A DNA stretch of 41,112 nt from an uncultured Ignavibacteriales bacterium. GTDB lineage: Bacteria > Bacteroidota > Ignavibacteria > Ignavibacteriales > Ignavibacteriaceae. Both the position numbers and the translations under genes were made by a program. The first letter of the stretch is position 1. Every line of letters starts with the position of its first letter. The DNA lies in contig CALLZX010000131.1 in assembly GCA_937858935.1 (NCBI GenBank), forward strand, positions 1 through 41,112, given 5' to 3'. The notes below the pieces were generated by a model. That model saw nothing but the letters and a program-made list of their open reading frames with translations. It ran no database searches and was not told the DNA's origin. This document shows positions 1-14,764 of the stretch, one piece after another.

Positions 1-2152
1 TAACTCATTACACATGATGGTTGACTCTGGTGCTAGAGGATCGCAAGAGCAGGTAAGACAGTTGGCAGGTATGAGAGGTTTGATGATGAAACCTCAAAAG
101 ACTCTTTCAGGTCAGGCCGGTGAAATTATCGAAAATCCTATTGTTGCAAACTTTAAAGAAGGTCTTTCTGTATTAGAGTATTTTATCTCAACACACGGTG
201 CAAGAAAAGGTTTGGCTGATACTGCTTTGAAAACTGCAGATGCAGGTTATCTTACAAGAAGATTAGTTGATGTTGCCCAAGACGTTATTATTTCTGAAAT
301 AGATTGCGGTACTATCCTAGGTATTGAAATCAAAGCTTTGAAAGATGTTGAAGAAGAAAGAGAACCACTAGCAGAACGTATTACTGGAAGATTCGCGCAA
401 GAAGATGTTTATGATCCCCGCACGGACGAGGTGATTATTGAGGCTGGTAATATTATAACTGAAGAAATTGCTGAAAAGATTGAAGATGCAAGTATTGATA
501 CAGTTTATATTAGAACTGTATTAACATGCGAATCTAAGCGCGGTGTATGTTTGAAGTGTTATGGTAGAAATCTTACAACTGGAAAACCGGTTGAGATTGG
601 TGAAGCAGTTGGAATAATTGCTGCACAATCTATAGGTGAGCCTGGAACCCAGTTAACACTTCGTACATTCCATCTTGGTGGTACCTCTTCAAGAATTGCA
701 TCACAATCTCAAGTAGAATCTAATATTGATGGTATAGTAAAATTTGAGAAAGTAAGTGCTGTAGAAAAAACTGAAAAAGATCCATTTGGTGGTGCTGATG
801 TTAAAATTAGCGTTGTTACCGGCCGAAGAGGATTGATAGAACTTTATGATGATAACAACAGACAGCTTAAAAAATATGACGTACCTTATGGTGCTGAACT
901 ATTGGTAAAAGATGGTCAGAAGATTAAGAAGAGACAACCTCTTTACAATCACGATCCATATAATGCAGTAATACTTTCTGATATTCTTGGTCGAGTGAAA
1001 TTTGTCGATCTTGTTGATGGAATTACATTGCAACAGGTAACTGATGATCAAACAGGACATGTGCAAAAAGTTGTAATCGAATCAAAAGATAAGAATCTTA
1101 CACCAAGTATACTGATTGAAAATTCTGATGGAGTAAAGAAATCTTTTAACCTTCCAATACGAGCATATTTGTCTGTTGAAGAAGGAGAAAATATTTTAGC
1201 TGGTACAATTCTCGCAAAAATATCCAAGCAAACTACCAAGAGTAGAGATATTACAGGTGGTCTTCCAAGAGTAACTGAATTATTCGAAGCTCGTAGTCCA
1301 CATGAATCAGCCGTCGTTTCAGAGATAGAAGGATTTGTAAAATTTGGTGCACGCAAAAAAGGTTCACGAGAAATTCTAGTAAGTGCCCCGGATAAATCTG
1401 ATGAGAAAAAATATAATGTTCCTTTACAGAAACATATTCTTGTTCAAGAAGGTGATGAAATTCCCGCAGGTGAAAAAATAACTGATGGTCCAATTAACCC
1501 TCATGATATTTTAGCAATTAAAGGTACCAGTGCTGTTCAGGAATATCTTGTAAATGAAATTCAAGATGTTTACAGACTTCAGGGTGTTAAGATTAATGAC
1601 AAACATATTGAAGTTATTGTAAGGCAGATGTTGCAGAAAATAAAGATTGTATCTCCTGGTGATACACGATTCCTTGAAGAGGATATTGTGGATAGAATTG
1701 AATTCATTGAAGAGAATAGCAAAATTGTAAATTTAGCTTACGTTGAAGATAAGGGTGATTCCAAACTTAAAAATGGACAGCTTATTCTAAAATCGAAGTT
1801 GAGAGAATTCAATACCGACCTTAAGAAGAAAGAAAAGAAAGAAATAGTTGCTAGAGATGCAGAACCTGCAACCTTTGAGCATATCCTTCTGGGAATCACA
1901 CAGGCGGCTCTATCAACCGAAAGCTTCATTTCGGCAGCATCATTCCAGGAAACCACTAAAGTGCTCGCTAATGCTGCTACAGAGGCCAAGGTAGACCATT
2001 TGTTAGGATTAAAAGAGAATGTTGTGATGGGTCATCTAATTCCAGCTGGTACTGGAATCAAAAAGTATAGAAATATAATTTTGGAGAGTGAAGAATTAGA
2101 AATTCCTGAGGAAAAAGAGGAAGAAAAAGAACTATCAGCAACTGATTTGTAA
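1..2152 (+). CDS. rpoC: RNA polymerase beta' subunit, C-terminal part (5' end outside window)
   Basis: This is the beta' subunit of RNA polymerase, which carries part of the catalytic centre. The reading frame is already open at the window edge (first complete codon at 2), so only about the last 716 residues are present; the catalytic NADFDGD metal site lies upstream, outside the window. Visible parts are the bridge-helix segment ([17 protein letters not shown]), the second zinc site (an isolated Cys in SEIDCGT, then [11 protein letters not shown]), and the trigger-loop start LRTFHLGG. About 190 residues then separate this from [16 protein letters not shown], the place and size expected for the SI3-type insertion in the trigger loop. 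The C-terminus ends in a Glu-rich tail. It is followed by a 150-bp gap that contains the rpsL promoter, so rpoC is probably the last gene of an rpoB-rpoC unit. Identity is certain from the motifs. Confidence 0.98.
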
Positions 2153-2230
2153 ATTAAATCGGTAATAGTTGCTGTTTCTCAGGCTAATTGACAATAATAA
2201 CAGTTAAAAATAAAAATAATTTCAGTTTTC

Positions 2231-2261
2231 TTGACAAAATTTAAACTGAAAACTATATTTG
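2231..2261 (+). promoter_or_regulatory. Probable promoter of the rpsL (str/S10/spc) operon
   Basis: TTGACA at 2231-2236 is followed after 17 bp by TATATT (2254-2259), a near-ideal sigma-70-like promoter. The same bases also fit the Bacteroidota primary-sigma consensus: TATATTTG (2254-2261) is an exact TAnnTTTG element, and TTG (2231-2233) lies 20 bp upstream of it. The expected start site is about 5-8 bp downstream, leaving a leader of roughly 35 nt before the rpsL GTG. It sits in the only sizeable gap between rpoC and rpsL. The match is seen directly; the activity is inferred. Confidence 0.7.
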
Positions 2262-2302
2262 AAATCTGAATTTTTTTGAAGAAGTAATTTTTAGGAGATT
2301 TT

Positions 2303-2689
2303 GTGCCCACGATAAATCAACTTGTTAGAAAAGGTAGAGTTAGAATTTTATCTAAAAATAAAGCTCCGGCTTTAGATGCATGTCCTCAGAAGAGAGGTGT
2401 ATGCACAAGGGTTTATACAACTACACCAAAAAAACCTAATTCTGCTCTTAGAAAAGTTGCAAGAGTTAGGCTTACAAAAACAAATGTTGAGGTAACAGCT
2501 TATATTCCGGGTGAAGGTCACAATTTACAGGAGCATTCGATTGTTATGATTCGTGGTGGTAGGGTTAAAGATTTGCCAGGTGTTAGATATCACATTATAC
2601 GTGGTACACTTGATACAAGCGGAGTTGCTGACAGAAAAAAAAGTCGTTCAAAATATGGTACAAAAAAACCAAAAGCGAATAAAAAATGA
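2303..2689 (+). CDS. rpsL: 30S ribosomal protein S12 (uS12)
   Basis: S12 sits at the decoding centre of the 30S subunit and helps set translational accuracy. The 128-aa product has the family hallmarks [13 protein letters not shown] (about residues 39-51) and [15 protein letters not shown] (about 84-98); the lysines linked to streptomycin response elsewhere (K43/K44 and K89 here) are unchanged. The start is GTG, chosen because [11 protein letters not shown] must follow the initiator and because AGGAG (2293-2297) lies 5 nt upstream. It is the first gene of the str cluster. Its stop overlaps the rpsG start (ATGA), which indicates translational coupling. The tail is Lys-rich ([10 protein letters not shown]). 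Confidence 0.98.
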
Positions 2690-3153
2690 GAAAAAGAAGA
2701 GCCGAAAAGAAATATTTAAAACCTGATCCAAAGTTTAATGACATTCTGGTTTCAAAATTTGTTAATTGTGTAATGTATGACGGAAAAAAGGCTGTTGCCA
2801 GAAATGTTATTTATGATGCATTTTTGTTGATAGAAGAGAAAACAAGCAAACCAGGTTTGGAAGTATTCAAAAAAGCTATATCTAACGCTCAGCCTATGAT
2901 AGAGGTTAGAAGTCGTAGAGTTGGTGGAGCAACATATCAGGTTCCTACAGAAGTTAGACCTGAAAGAAGAATAGCATTAGCAATGAGATGGATTAAAAAT
3001 TACTCAAGAACCAGAGGCGAAAAATCTATGTCTGCTAAATTAGCTTCAGAGTTAATAGCGGCATCAAATGGTGAAGGTTCTGCCGTTAAGAAAAAAGAAG
3101 ATGTTCACAAAATGGCCGAAGCTAATAAAGCTTTTGCTCACTTTAAATGGTAA
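2686..3153 (+). CDS. rpsG: 30S ribosomal protein S7 (uS7)
   Basis: S7 is the primary assembly protein of the 30S head and binds the 3' major domain of 16S rRNA; it also contacts the E-site tRNA. The 155-aa length is usual. Family sequence is seen in [19 protein letters not shown] at the N-terminus, [20 protein letters not shown] in the middle and the [15 protein letters not shown] end. The ATG overlaps the rpsL stop by 4 nt (ATGA), so it should be translated by coupling with S12, and there is no separate promoter. In other bacteria S7 represses its own operon mRNA at this junction; whether that happens here cannot be told, because the intercistronic spacer used for that in E. coli is absent. 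Confidence 0.98.
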
Positions 3154-3175
3154 TGAAAGAATTGATTAGGAATTA

Positions 3176-5272
3176 ATGGCAAGTAAAGTTAAAATAGATA
3201 AAGTTCGTAACATTGGTATTATGGCACATATTGATGCTGGTAAAACTACCACTACTGAGAGAATATTATTCTACACTGGTAAGTTGCATCGAATTGGTGA
3301 AGTGCATGATGGCGCAGCAACGATGGATTGGATGGAGCAAGAAAAGGAAAGAGGGATTACTATTACAAGTGCTGCCACTACTTGTTATTGGAATGATCAT
3401 CAAATAAATATTATTGACACTCCAGGTCACGTTGATTTTACCGTAGAAGTTGAAAGATCACTGAGAATTTTAGATGGTGCTGTTGCTCTTTTTTGTGCTG
3501 TGGGTGGTGTTGAACCACAATCTGAAACAGTTTGGCGTCAAGCAGATAAATATGGTGTACCTAGAATGGCATTCATCAATAAGATGGATAGAACAGGTGC
3601 AGATTTTTATCATGCAGTCGAGATGATGAGAGAGCGACTAGGCGCAAATGCAATTCCGATCAATCTTCCTATTGGTGAAGGTGATTTATTTGTTGGAGTA
3701 ATTGATTTAATTCATTTCAATGCAAGAATGTTTCATGAGGAATCTTTTGGATCTACTTTTGACGAAATTGCAATTCCACATGATCTCCTAGAACTTGCTA
3801 CAAAATATAGAACACAAATGTTAGAAGCTGTATCAGATGTTGATGATACACTTTTAGAAAAGTATTTAGAGGGGAAAGAGATTAGTGCTGATGAAATTAG
3901 AACTGTTCTCAGAAGAGCTACAATTGAATTAAAAATAATCCCGGTTTTATGTGGCTCAGCGTTTAAGAATAAGGGTGTTCAGAAATTATTGGATTCGGTA
4001 GTAGATTTTCTTCCTTCCCCAATTGATTCACCGGACATTGAAGCGCATCATATAGGTTTAAATGATATTGTTAAAAGAAAGATTAGTGAAGATGAACATT
4101 TTACTGCTTTAGCTTTTAAGATTATGACGGATCCATTTGTAGGCAAACTTACATTTTTTAGAGTCTATGCTGGATCATTAAAATCAGGATCATACATTTA
4201 TAACTCTATCAGCGGCAAGAAGGAAAGAATAAGTAGACTTTTACAAATGCATGCTAATCATAGAGAAGAGATTTCGGAAGTTAAAGCTGGAGATATTGCA
4301 GCAGCAGTTGGTTTGAAATATACGAGAACTGGTGACACATTATGTGCTGAAGAAGATCCTGTAGTAATGGAAAGAATAGTTTTTCCAGAACCAGTTATTC
4401 AAATAGCTATTGAACCAAAAACAAAAGCTGATCAGGATAAATTATCTGATGCTTTATCCAAATTATCTGATGAAGATCCTACATTTAAAGTTAAAGTTGA
4501 TGAAGAAACAGGGCAAACATTAATTAGTGGAATGGGCGAACTTCACTTGGAAATTCTTGTTGATAGAATGAGACGCGAATTTAAAGTTGAGGCTAATGTT
4601 GGTAAACCTCAGGTTGCTTATCGCGAAACAATTACTCAAAGCGTTCAAGCGGAAGGTAAATTTGTTAAGCAGTCTGGTGGTCGTGGAAAGTTTGGTCATG
4701 TGTGGATAGAGTTAATTCCGAATGAAGTTGGTAAAGGTTTTGAATTTATAAATGGAATTGTTGGCGGTGTAGTTCCAAAAGAGTATATACCTGCAGTTTC
4801 TCATGGAATTCAAGATGCAATGAAAAATGGAGTAATTGCAGGTTTTCCAATGGTTGATATAAAAGCTAGACTCTACGATGGTTCTTATCATGATGTTGAT
4901 TCCGATGAAATTTCGTTTAGAGTTGCAGGGTCTATGGCCTTCCAAGCAGGAGCTAAAAAAGCAAATCCTGTTTTACTTGAGCCAATAATGGGTGTAGAAG
5001 TGGTTACACCTGAAGAGTATTTGGGTGATGTAATGGGTGATTTGAATTCCAGAAGAGGTAAGATCGAAGGATTTTCTGCTAGAAAAGATGCTCAAGTGAT
5101 TAAGGCTCATGTACCTTTGTCAGAAATGTTTGGATATGCCACAGTATTAAGATCAATGAGTCAAGGCCGAGCGATTTATTCAATGCAGTTTGATCATTAT
5201 GCCTCAGTACCTAGATCAATTGCGGAAGAAATTTCTGAAAAAACATTAGGAAAAAAATCAGCAGCAAACTAA
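3176..5272 (+). CDS. fusA: Elongation factor G
   Basis: EF-G is the GTPase that drives translocation of tRNA and mRNA through the ribosome. At 698 aa it has the normal bacterial length. The GTPase motifs are intact: AHIDAGKT (17-24), RGIT switch I (59-62), DTPGH (81-85) and NKMD (135-138). Domain III is marked by [10 protein letters not shown], and the domain IV loop with [12 protein letters not shown] is present. It is a canonical, full-length translocase rather than a divergent second EF-G copy, as expected from its place between rpsG and tuf. The start ATG ([15 protein letters not shown]) lies 22 nt after rpsG without a clear Shine-Dalgarno, so it probably depends on coupling or an unstructured leader. 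Confidence 0.98.
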
Positions 5273-5318
5273 TAACTGGATTAAAAAAACTTAAAAAAAT
5301 TTATTAAAGGAGAATTCG

Positions 5319-6524
5319 ATGGCTAAAGAAAAATTTGATAGGAGTAAACCTCACGTTAACGTAGGAACAATTGGTCACGTAGATCATGGAAAAACCACAT
5401 TAACCGCTGCCATCACAATGGCTCTCGCTAGAAAAGGCTTATCAGCAATAAGAACTTTTGATAGTATTGATAATGCACCTGAAGAGAGAGAAAGAGGAAT
5501 TACAATTGCAACAGCTCACGTTGAATATTCAACTGCTAACCGTCACTACGCACACGTAGACTGTCCTGGTCACGCTGATTATGTTAAAAACATGATTACA
5601 GGTGCTGCTCAGATGGATGGAGCAATTTTAGTTGTTGCTGCAACTGATGGTCCTATGCCTCAAACAAGGGAGCACATTCTCCTTGCTCGCCAGGTAGGTG
5701 TACCAAGAATGGTTGTATTTTTAAATAAAGTAGATATGGTTGATGATCCAGAATTAATTGAATTAGTTGAAGAAGAATTAAGAGATTTGTTAACTCAATA
5801 TGAATTTCCTGGCACCGAAATTCCAATTATAAAAGGATCAGCATTACAAGCTTTAGAAGCCGGTTCATCAAACGCAGAAATTACAGATCCAAGATATAAT
5901 TGTATTTGGGAACTTATGGATGCTGTCGACAGCTATATCCCAGTACCTGAAAGACATTCAGATAAACCTTTCCTAATGCCAGTTGAAGACGTTTTCTCAA
6001 TTACTGGTCGTGGTACAGTTGCTACTGGTAGAGTTGAAAGAGGTCAGGTTAAGATTCAGGAAGAAGTTGAATTAATAGGATTAGGCTTACACAAGAAAAC
6101 TGTTGTTACCGGTATTGAAATGTTTAGAAAAGAATTAGATCAGGCTATGGCTGGAGATAATGCTGGTATATTGTTAAGAGGTGTTGATAAAAATGAGATT
6201 GAAAGAGGAATGGTTCTTGCAAAAACAGGTTCAATAACTCCTCATACAAATTTTGAAGGTTCAGTTTATGTTCTTTCAAAAGATGAAGGTGGAAGACATA
6301 CACCATTCTTTAATGGGTATAGACCACAGTTTTACTTCAGAACAACAGATGTTACCGGTGTTGCTACATTACCAGAAGGTACAGAAATGGTTATGCCTGG
6401 TGATAATGTAAATTTGTCGATTGAATTAATTGCACCTATCGCTATGGAAGAAAAATTAAGATTTGCTATTCGTGAAGGCGGTAGAACTGTTGGTTCTGGT
6501 GTTGTTACAAAGATTATTAAATAA
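5319..6524 (+). CDS. tuf: Elongation factor Tu
   Basis: EF-Tu brings aminoacyl-tRNA to the ribosomal A site as a GTP complex. The 401-aa protein has GHVDHGKT (19-26), RGITI switch I with T62, DCPGH (81-85) with the catalytic His, and NKVD (136-139); domains II and III follow, including the FRTTDVTG and [10 protein letters not shown] segments. A strong AAAGGAG sits about 6 nt before the ATG, fitting very high expression. Its place directly between fusA and rpsJ matches the classical str operon order; in many Bacteroidia tuf is instead with the secE-nusG genes. It is followed by a perfect hairpin (6554-6579). Confidence 0.98.
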
Positions 6525-14690: not shown

Positions 14691-14764
14691 TGCCGGATCG
14701 TCTAATGGTAGGACTACGCCCTTTGGAGGCGTCTGTAGAGGTTCGAATCCTCTTCCGGCAACCA
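14691..14764 (+). tRNA. tRNA-Gln (anticodon TTG), inside the spc operon
   Basis: A complete cloverleaf can be folded by hand. The acceptor stem is TGCCGGA (14691-14697) with TCCGGCA (14754-14760). The D arm is GTC/GAC around a TAATGGTAG loop. The anticodon stem is ACGCC/GGCGT around the 7-nt loop CTTTGGA, which places TTG at positions 34-36. The T arm is AGAGG/CCTCT around TTCGAAT. The discriminator is A, followed by an encoded CCA (14762-14764). The U1-A72 pair is a feature of glutamine tRNAs, and UUG reads CAA/CAG. It lies between rplR and rpsE on the same strand with no obvious promoter of its own, so it is probably cut from the ribosomal protein transcript. Confidence 0.93.

Follow-up and report, generated by a model that had tools for sequence, protein, structure and literature searches.

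A predicted rpsL promoter in a lineage outside Bacteroidia reads as sigma-70-like and as Bacteroidota-type in a single register

Promoters of Bacteroidota have been called dramatically different from those of the sigma-70 type, and the failure of E. coli genes to be expressed in these bacteria is attributed to this difference (PMC6847099, in the sections cited). Among the closest described systems is the sigma-ABfr promoter of B. fragilis, B. thetaiotaomicron and F. johnsoniae, which combines TTTG at -33 with TAnnTTTG at -7. In flavobacteria, according to the cited portions of two studies, the box TAHHTTTG extends from -12 to -5 (PMC6847099, PMC9723704), and transcription of F. johnsoniae starts 4-5 nt past this box (PMC6847099). 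For E. coli, the excerpted part of a third study describes open complexes as stabilised by G at nontemplate position -5, and sigma region 1.2 as being in contact with the discriminator at its upstream end (PMC4496709). Two further systems serve as points of comparison: the canonical sigma-70 promoter, TTGACA-N17-TATAAT, and the rRNA-type promoters of E. coli, such as rrnB P1, with control through the discriminator.

The window analysed here, i.e., the whole stretch of 41,112 nt, belongs to a lineage to which we give the presumptive label Ignavibacteria-like. Among the literature matches listed, which were open-licence papers, there was no work on the promoter consensus of Ignavibacteria-like or Chlorobi lineages. 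The preliminary description had proposed that bases 2231-2261, upstream of rpsL, satisfy the sigma-70-like and the Bacteroidota consensus at once, and this is borne out by the window sequence: the same bases read as TTGACA-N17-TATATT and as TTG-N20-TATATTTG. The site matches 11 of the 12 sigma-70 consensus bases, the best score of 16 promoter-like sites on both strands of window positions 1-6000, and it fits TAHHTTTG (-12 to -5), with TATATTTG at 2254-2261 and a base other than G at both H positions. Because TTG-N20-TA is the canonical 17-nt spacer in another notation, the two consensus readings share one register; thus, as far as the bases go, the "dual" match is a single register read twice and not two promoters. 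The hexamer ends 43 nt ahead of the rpsL GTG codon, and the encoded protein is 97% identical to that of the nearest other genome of the genus.

Compared to the canonical sigma-70 promoter, the site has the exact TTGACA, the 17-nt spacer and five of six bases at -10; it differs in having T in place of A at the fifth -10 base, a substitution shared, by exact TATATT, with 71 of 72 family orthologues, and TAnnAT shows no excess in the genus. Compared to the sigma-ABfr promoter, the likeness consists in TAnnTT with T at -8, in TG at -6/-5, and in a short sigma factor of the same type whose region 2.4 stretch equals that of two Flavobacterium-like genomes, whereas the full TTGACA at a fixed 17-nt spacer sets the window site apart, as does the optional status of TG in the family. 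At the place of the -33 TTTG (approximately), the window has CTTG rather than TTTG, and the genus strongly prefers TTG at N20; by contrast, the -33 motif is described as weak in F. johnsoniae in the cited parts of two papers (PMC6847099, PMC7366714). Taking the distance of 4-5 nt cited above for F. johnsoniae, the start of transcription in the window is predicted at 2266-2267, on the conserved C-Y, which would put the G of TTTG at -5. The features are collected in the table.

Table. Features of the rpsL promoter region and the sigma factor gene in the window
Feature	Coordinates	Strand	Conservation or remark
-35 element TTGACA	2231..2236	+	TTGAC in 68/72 family orthologues
17-nt spacer	2237..2253	+	TTG-N20-TATATT in 71/72 family orthologues
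-10 hexamer TATATT (TAnnTT type)	2254..2259	+	71/72 family orthologues; peak of TTG-N20-TAnnTT in the genus
TG, last two bases of TAnnTTTG; expected at -6/-5 (discriminator, upstream end)	2260..2261	+	
Conserved start region ATCTG (GTCTG in most relatives)	2264..2268	+	predicted transcription start 2266-2268
Conserved AA plus T-run, start of the leader	2269..2277	+	
Shine-Dalgarno-like AGGAG	2293..2297	+	SD-like motif in 70/72 family rpsL upstreams
rpsL (ribosomal protein uS12), GTG start	2303..2689	+	
Primary sigma factor, Bacteroidota type, 284 aa	25948..26802	+	

RpsL was found in 73 of the 80 family genomes, and 72 upstream sequences were counted (G185 was left out, and second places in G183 and G189 were not used). 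TTGAC-N18-TATATT occurs in 68 of the 72, as does the looser TTGAC-N18-TAnnTT, for which shuffled sequences gave a mean of 0.1. TTG-N20-TATATT is found in all sequences except one (L233), where a -10-like element and GTCTG are still present. A second conserved block, GTCTG in 45 of 70 sites and a variant of it in the others, occupies positions 11-15 (the hexamer starting at position 1), is conserved nearly as well as the hexamer itself, and is mostly followed by AA and a run of T. The combined pattern TAnnTT-N4-R-N-C-Y is present in all 72 upstream sequences, compared to 5.2 in shuffles. Judged by this conservation, the rpsL promoter is real, and it is through place and conservation that its motif rises above chance. 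The T-run directly past the predicted start (window 2269-2277) is kept through most of the family; slippage, for example, is conceivable there.

The two bases that complete TAnnTTTG behave differently from the hexamer. The TTTG ending is found in only 26 of the 72 orthologues and is thus not conserved: among 70 family sites, position 7 from the start of the hexamer is T in 38, A in 28 and G in 4, and position 8 is G in 43, A in 14, T in 9 and C in 4. Within the genus, each of the six genomes examined carries TATATTTG; in other genera of the family, an otherwise like promoter has TATATTAG, TATATTTA or a similar sequence. T-6 G-5 is therefore far from near-invariant, and the suggestion that TTTG is a fixed part of the rpsL promoter is not supported.

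The promoter grammar of the genus was studied in two samples, about 434 kb of the own genome, in which the window is contained, and 800 kb of another genome of the genus; a simple gene caller yielded 601 upstreams, of which 590 were retained after removal of shared sequence. In these 590 sequences, TTG-N(s)-TAnnTT showed a sharp peak at s = 20, with 69 sites versus 23.7 at control spacings (P = 3e-14), and the peak was independent of the start rule (75 vs 24.1, or 76 vs 25.9). In the first spacing profile, the rise at N20 was seen on both strands (44 forward, 20 reverse), as is expected where divergent upstreams are included; in non-divergent upstreams, TTG-N20-TAnnTT was found 35 times forward and 7 times reverse, with a control mean of 15.0. 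There was no such preference for A at the fifth base of the -10 element: in the genus samples, TTG-N20-TAnnAT was not in excess (18 vs 17.8), and TATAAT occurred 66 times forward versus 71 times reverse, so that an A-fifth-base -10 is not the preference of this lineage. The full TTGACA is rare, with six peak sites in the genus samples.

The extended form TTG-N20-TAnnTTTG was found 20 times in the 590 upstreams, versus 2.9 at controls. TG follows the hexamer in 20 of the 69 peak sites versus 41 of 332 control sites (p = 0.0009), which corresponds to approximately 38% of the excess sites, and the column counts in the genus agree, with a deficit of A and an excess of T at position 7, and an excess of G at position 8. 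TAnnTTTG occurred 81 times forward and 40 times reverse in non-divergent upstreams of the own genus, with 49 expected. A genome-wide consensus lacking TTTG had been named as the outcome that would speak against the proposed promoter; in the consensus check run on these upstream samples, TTTG was above chance. The genus thus appears, on these counts, to combine a Bacteroidota-type -10 element with the canonical spacing and often to append TG, suggesting that the extra TTTG match may be common but optional in the lineage.

It should be noted that whole-genome pattern counts with a reversed-pattern control proved uninformative: the loose TTG-N20-TAnnTTTG was not enriched in the whole genome (81 vs 86 for the reversed pattern), and TTGACA-N17-TAnnnT was found 34 times versus 71. 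A number of the loose-pattern matches are antisense to a repeated coding motif close to QNYPNPFNPS (e.g., G000:C90:3516-3546 and G000:C425:28541-28571), which we take to resemble a type IX secretion tail. A de novo search for a two-block motif by expectation-maximisation, run on the first 377 upstreams from three seeds, led to no promoter motif, and spacing profiles were used instead.

An explanation that assigns more weight to the two extra bases is that selection has turned TTTG into a functional component of the rpsL promoter in the genus, in which case it would not be optional there. The presence of TATATTTG in all six genus genomes and the excess of TG after the -10 element genome-wide both point in this direction; however, six close relatives are not independent, and other genera of the family, with TATATTAG or TATATTTA in a like promoter, and the overall fraction of TG, argue against it. 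We consider this explanation unlikely, although it survives better than the alternatives below.

Outside the family, the balance of the promoter elements at rpsL changes. For this comparison, 14 loci from the order (family f2) were used, together with 47 loci from the rest of the class and 48 loci of named Bacteroidia. The rest-of-class count represents 47 of 50 loci at hand, taken from 122 class places outside families f1 and f2 (L268, L280 and L285 were dropped as being without a recognisable start; L273, a 90-nt fragment, was kept). The named Bacteroidia were picked by title from 80 loci, excluding L039 and L044, which are titled Sphingomonadales, and leaving out L031, titled Bacteroidetes bacterium, which is closest to the own lineage (74% DNA identity). 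TTGAC-N18-TAnnTT, found in 68 of 72 family loci, is present in all 14 order loci, in 24 of 47 from the rest of the class, and in 1 of the 48 named Bacteroidia; conversely, TAnnTTTGC is found in 1 family locus, in none from the order, in 6 from the rest of the class, and in all 48 named Bacteroidia. The rpsL promoter of these named Bacteroidia has the reverse emphasis: TAnnTTTGC is kept, and TTGAC is nearly absent. In the same 48 loci, TTG stands at N19-21 before TAnnTTTG in 38, exactly N20 before TAnnTT is found in only 9, and R-N-C-Y is present by pattern in 30, which indicates that the register and the identity of the start region are looser in this set. Common to nearly all groups is the hexamer itself, with TAnnTT in 188 of 189 picks of the site finder and TAnnAT in none, in a scoring that favours T at the fifth base by one point. 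Among 12 further loci of the phylum (L401-L414), TTGAC was found in none and TTTGC in three; eight of the 12 come from the FMO-bearing family and have TACATTGG-like forms. The rpsL promoters of this family (L405-L407, L410-L414) read TACATTGG, TACTTTGG or similar, followed by GTCC, and represent a third form of the same site.

These differences raise the question of a trade-off between the -35 element and TG. TG at rpsL, present in about a third of the family loci, occurs in 1 of 14 order loci, and of the 11 TG cases in the rest of the class, 7 belong to three families in which TTGAC was not seen (f8, f15 and f20). Among class promoters beyond the own family, TG is present in 4 of 40 with TTGAC versus 8 of 21 without it (p = 0.016), a statistic that ignores relatedness and that stands on a site finder rewarding -35 quality and C13/Y14. 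Within the genus, the trade-off is absent: TG follows the hexamer in 10 of 36 sites with TTGA and in 11 of 39 with another TTG (p = 1.0), and in 4 of 8 genus sites with TTGAC. The trade-off, clear between groups and absent inside the genus, may thus be regarded as a lead and no proof; between groups, it fits the mix-and-match view of promoter elements, as presented in the cited part of PMC5333181.

Two genomes of the phylum were compared with the genus genome-wide. G264, whose rpsL region has 82-86% DNA identity to the best four named Flavobacterium loci and is hence termed Flavobacterium-like, belongs to the same phylum as the window lineage and to another class, in agreement with the earlier surmise that the lineage may sit outside Bacteroidia. 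In non-divergent upstreams of G264, TAnnTTTG occurred 51 times forward and 14 times reverse, with 17 expected, which is stronger than in the own genus, and no TTG spacing peak was found in this genome. Shine-Dalgarno-like sequences are commoner in the window lineage, with 181 of 602 upstreams versus 4 of 234 in G264 by one start rule without SD scoring, and 238 of 601 versus 52 of 248 with SD scoring. G277 (GC 58%) belongs to the FMO family, all three tested members of which encode the FMO protein of green sulfur bacteria; TAnnTTTG was found there 3 times forward and once reverse, with 3.9 expected (5 and 3 with another start rule), counts that the high GC keeps small, and TATATT 10 times forward versus 2 reverse.

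The form of the rpsL promoter recurs at rRNA genes of relatives. A 16S rRNA gene could be located in 4 of the 10 genomes tried, none of these being among the three from the own genus. Upstream of them, 7 of 13 pattern matches have the full form and are described here, the other six being without it, and the nearest match in each of the four loci is among the seven. These promoter-like sites have TTGAC (TTGCA in one), a spacer of 17 nt (18 in one) and TAAGTT or TAAATT, and four bases past the -10 element follow GTCCG, GCCCT, GACTG, GCCCG, AGCTG, GTCTG or GTCCG, so that they resemble the rpsL form including the C-Y start region. In two of the four loci (L469-L472), the sites are in tandem. The resemblance suggests that rRNA and rpsL may be under shared control through the start region, a signature whose occurrence at both kinds of genes in this group is comparable to E. 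coli rRNA-type promoters; by analogy with rrnB P1, control by ppGpp or the initiating nucleotide can be conjectured. A matrix of the whole rpsL/rRNA form (-35, -10 and start region) reached 24.0 bits at one and 22.2 bits at the other of the two rpsL promoters in 1.23 Mb of genus samples, where no other gene with an rpsL-type form scored above 13.5 bits; reversed sequences gave more matches than the real ones at every threshold shown, with six above 16 bits. The rpsL/rRNA form is therefore not a general class in the genus. An earlier pattern requiring G at position 11 gave 18 matches and skips rpsL of the own genus, and in the upstreams of tmRNA and RNase P RNA (30 loci each), inspected by eye, no consensus promoter was seen at a fixed distance.

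The preliminary description was right that the window encodes a primary sigma factor of the Bacteroidota type (see the table). The protein is short and without region 1.1, with only a brief stretch ahead of the part resembling region 1.2. Among the 14 genomes compared, a 31-residue stretch of region 2.4 is shared without change by 10, across class boundaries, and four others of the phylum deviate from it; the stretch is the same in the window, in both Flavobacterium-like genomes of family f34 and in both FMO-family genomes compared. Region 2.4 thus cannot explain the difference in emphasis between the window genus and Flavobacterium, and the earlier appeal to this region as the source of a TAnnTTTG preference finds no support, the same stretch being present in the FMO family, where TAnnTTTG is not clearly enriched in the small counts of G277.

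A second primary-type sigma factor, 71% identical to that of the window, is encoded in the own genome (G000:C440:9831-10688), in one same-genus genome and in one of the same order (G119:C1:957690-958547, i.e., L192:7690-8550, and G113:C1:2123859-2124716). If these two similar factors formed two holoenzymes, one preferring -35-rich and the other TTTG-rich forms, the double match at rpsL could serve both of them. The second copy in G000, G119 and G113 is what such a division would call for, but the region 2.4 stretch of the G119 paralogue has only conservative changes relative to that of the window, and G032 (family f3), a class relative, has the TTGAC form at rpsL with a single sigma copy, which makes this explanation very improbable. 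Least credible, to the point of being nearly negligible, is a chance match in A+T-rich DNA: promoter-like sites in window positions 1-6000 are not above chance (16 vs 20.0 in shuffles, sd 4.6) and the loose pattern shows no genome-wide enrichment, but the near-constant occurrence of TTGAC-N18-TAnnTT at invariable spacing in the family, against almost none in shuffled sequences, refutes chance for the -35/-10 pair, and only the TG by itself could be fortuitous.

Two other candidates in the same region were tried and rejected. An inverted repeat around the -35 element (TTTCAGTTT / AAACTGAAA) was considered as an operator; of 70 family sites, 3 have an exact arm of 9 nt and 54 one of at most 5 nt. 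A structure in the leader RNA was dismissed, there being no stable fold (z = +1.17); the only Rfam match over the gathering score in the window is a tRNA at 14691.

In our view, the site of the rpsL operon is, quite probably, a strong housekeeping (sigma-A) promoter of an intermediate type, in which "sigma-70-like" and "Bacteroidota-type" would be two emphases of one architecture. We define the components of this putative architecture as follows: (i) the promoter type of the lineage would pair TTG(A) as the -35 element with TAnnTT as the -10 element across a spacer of exactly 17 nt, and approximately one-third of the promoters would add TG at -6/-5; (ii) the Bacteroidota box TAnnTTTG (-12 to -5) would be the same -10 hexamer with two discriminator bases, which is the simplest understanding of the extension given the effect of the -5 G and the contact of the discriminator with region 1.2 in E. 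coli (PMC4496709, in the part cited); (iii) rpsL and the rRNA promoter-like sites of the relatives would be strong versions, which have TAnnTT, a conserved R-N-C-Y at about -2 to +2 and, for the most part, TTGAC. From group to group in the phylum, the emphasis at rpsL shifts from the -35 element (TTGAC) to TG plus the C after the hexamer in Bacteroidia. Polymerase carrying the sigma factor of the window, or its paralogue, would start at 2266-2268; the G at -5 may act through sigma region 1.2 as it does in E. coli, and -35 and discriminator contacts may compensate for each other. Of the relation between the two promoter forms that the preliminary description had hoped to see, the intermediate position of the lineage is retained, and the parts assigned to a fixed TTTG and to region 2.4 are not.

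It is possible, though we hold this more doubtful than not, that the rpsL promoter preserves a stepwise change from a canonical -35/-10 promoter to the Bacteroidota -7 promoter, in which T at -8, shared by nearly all groups examined, came first, and weight was then transferred from the -35 element (TTGAC) to the discriminator (T-6 G-5 C-4) with region 2.4 unchanged. If this is true, the change lies in sigma region 1.2, in core RNA polymerase or in accessory factors, and the window lineage is a living intermediate. These results argue against inferring a TAnnTTTG preference from sigma region 2.4 alone and offer a practical guide for the choice of promoters in uncultured relatives, and an intermediate grammar within the same phylum would provide a natural series in which the part of the polymerase responsible for the shift in specificity could be sought.
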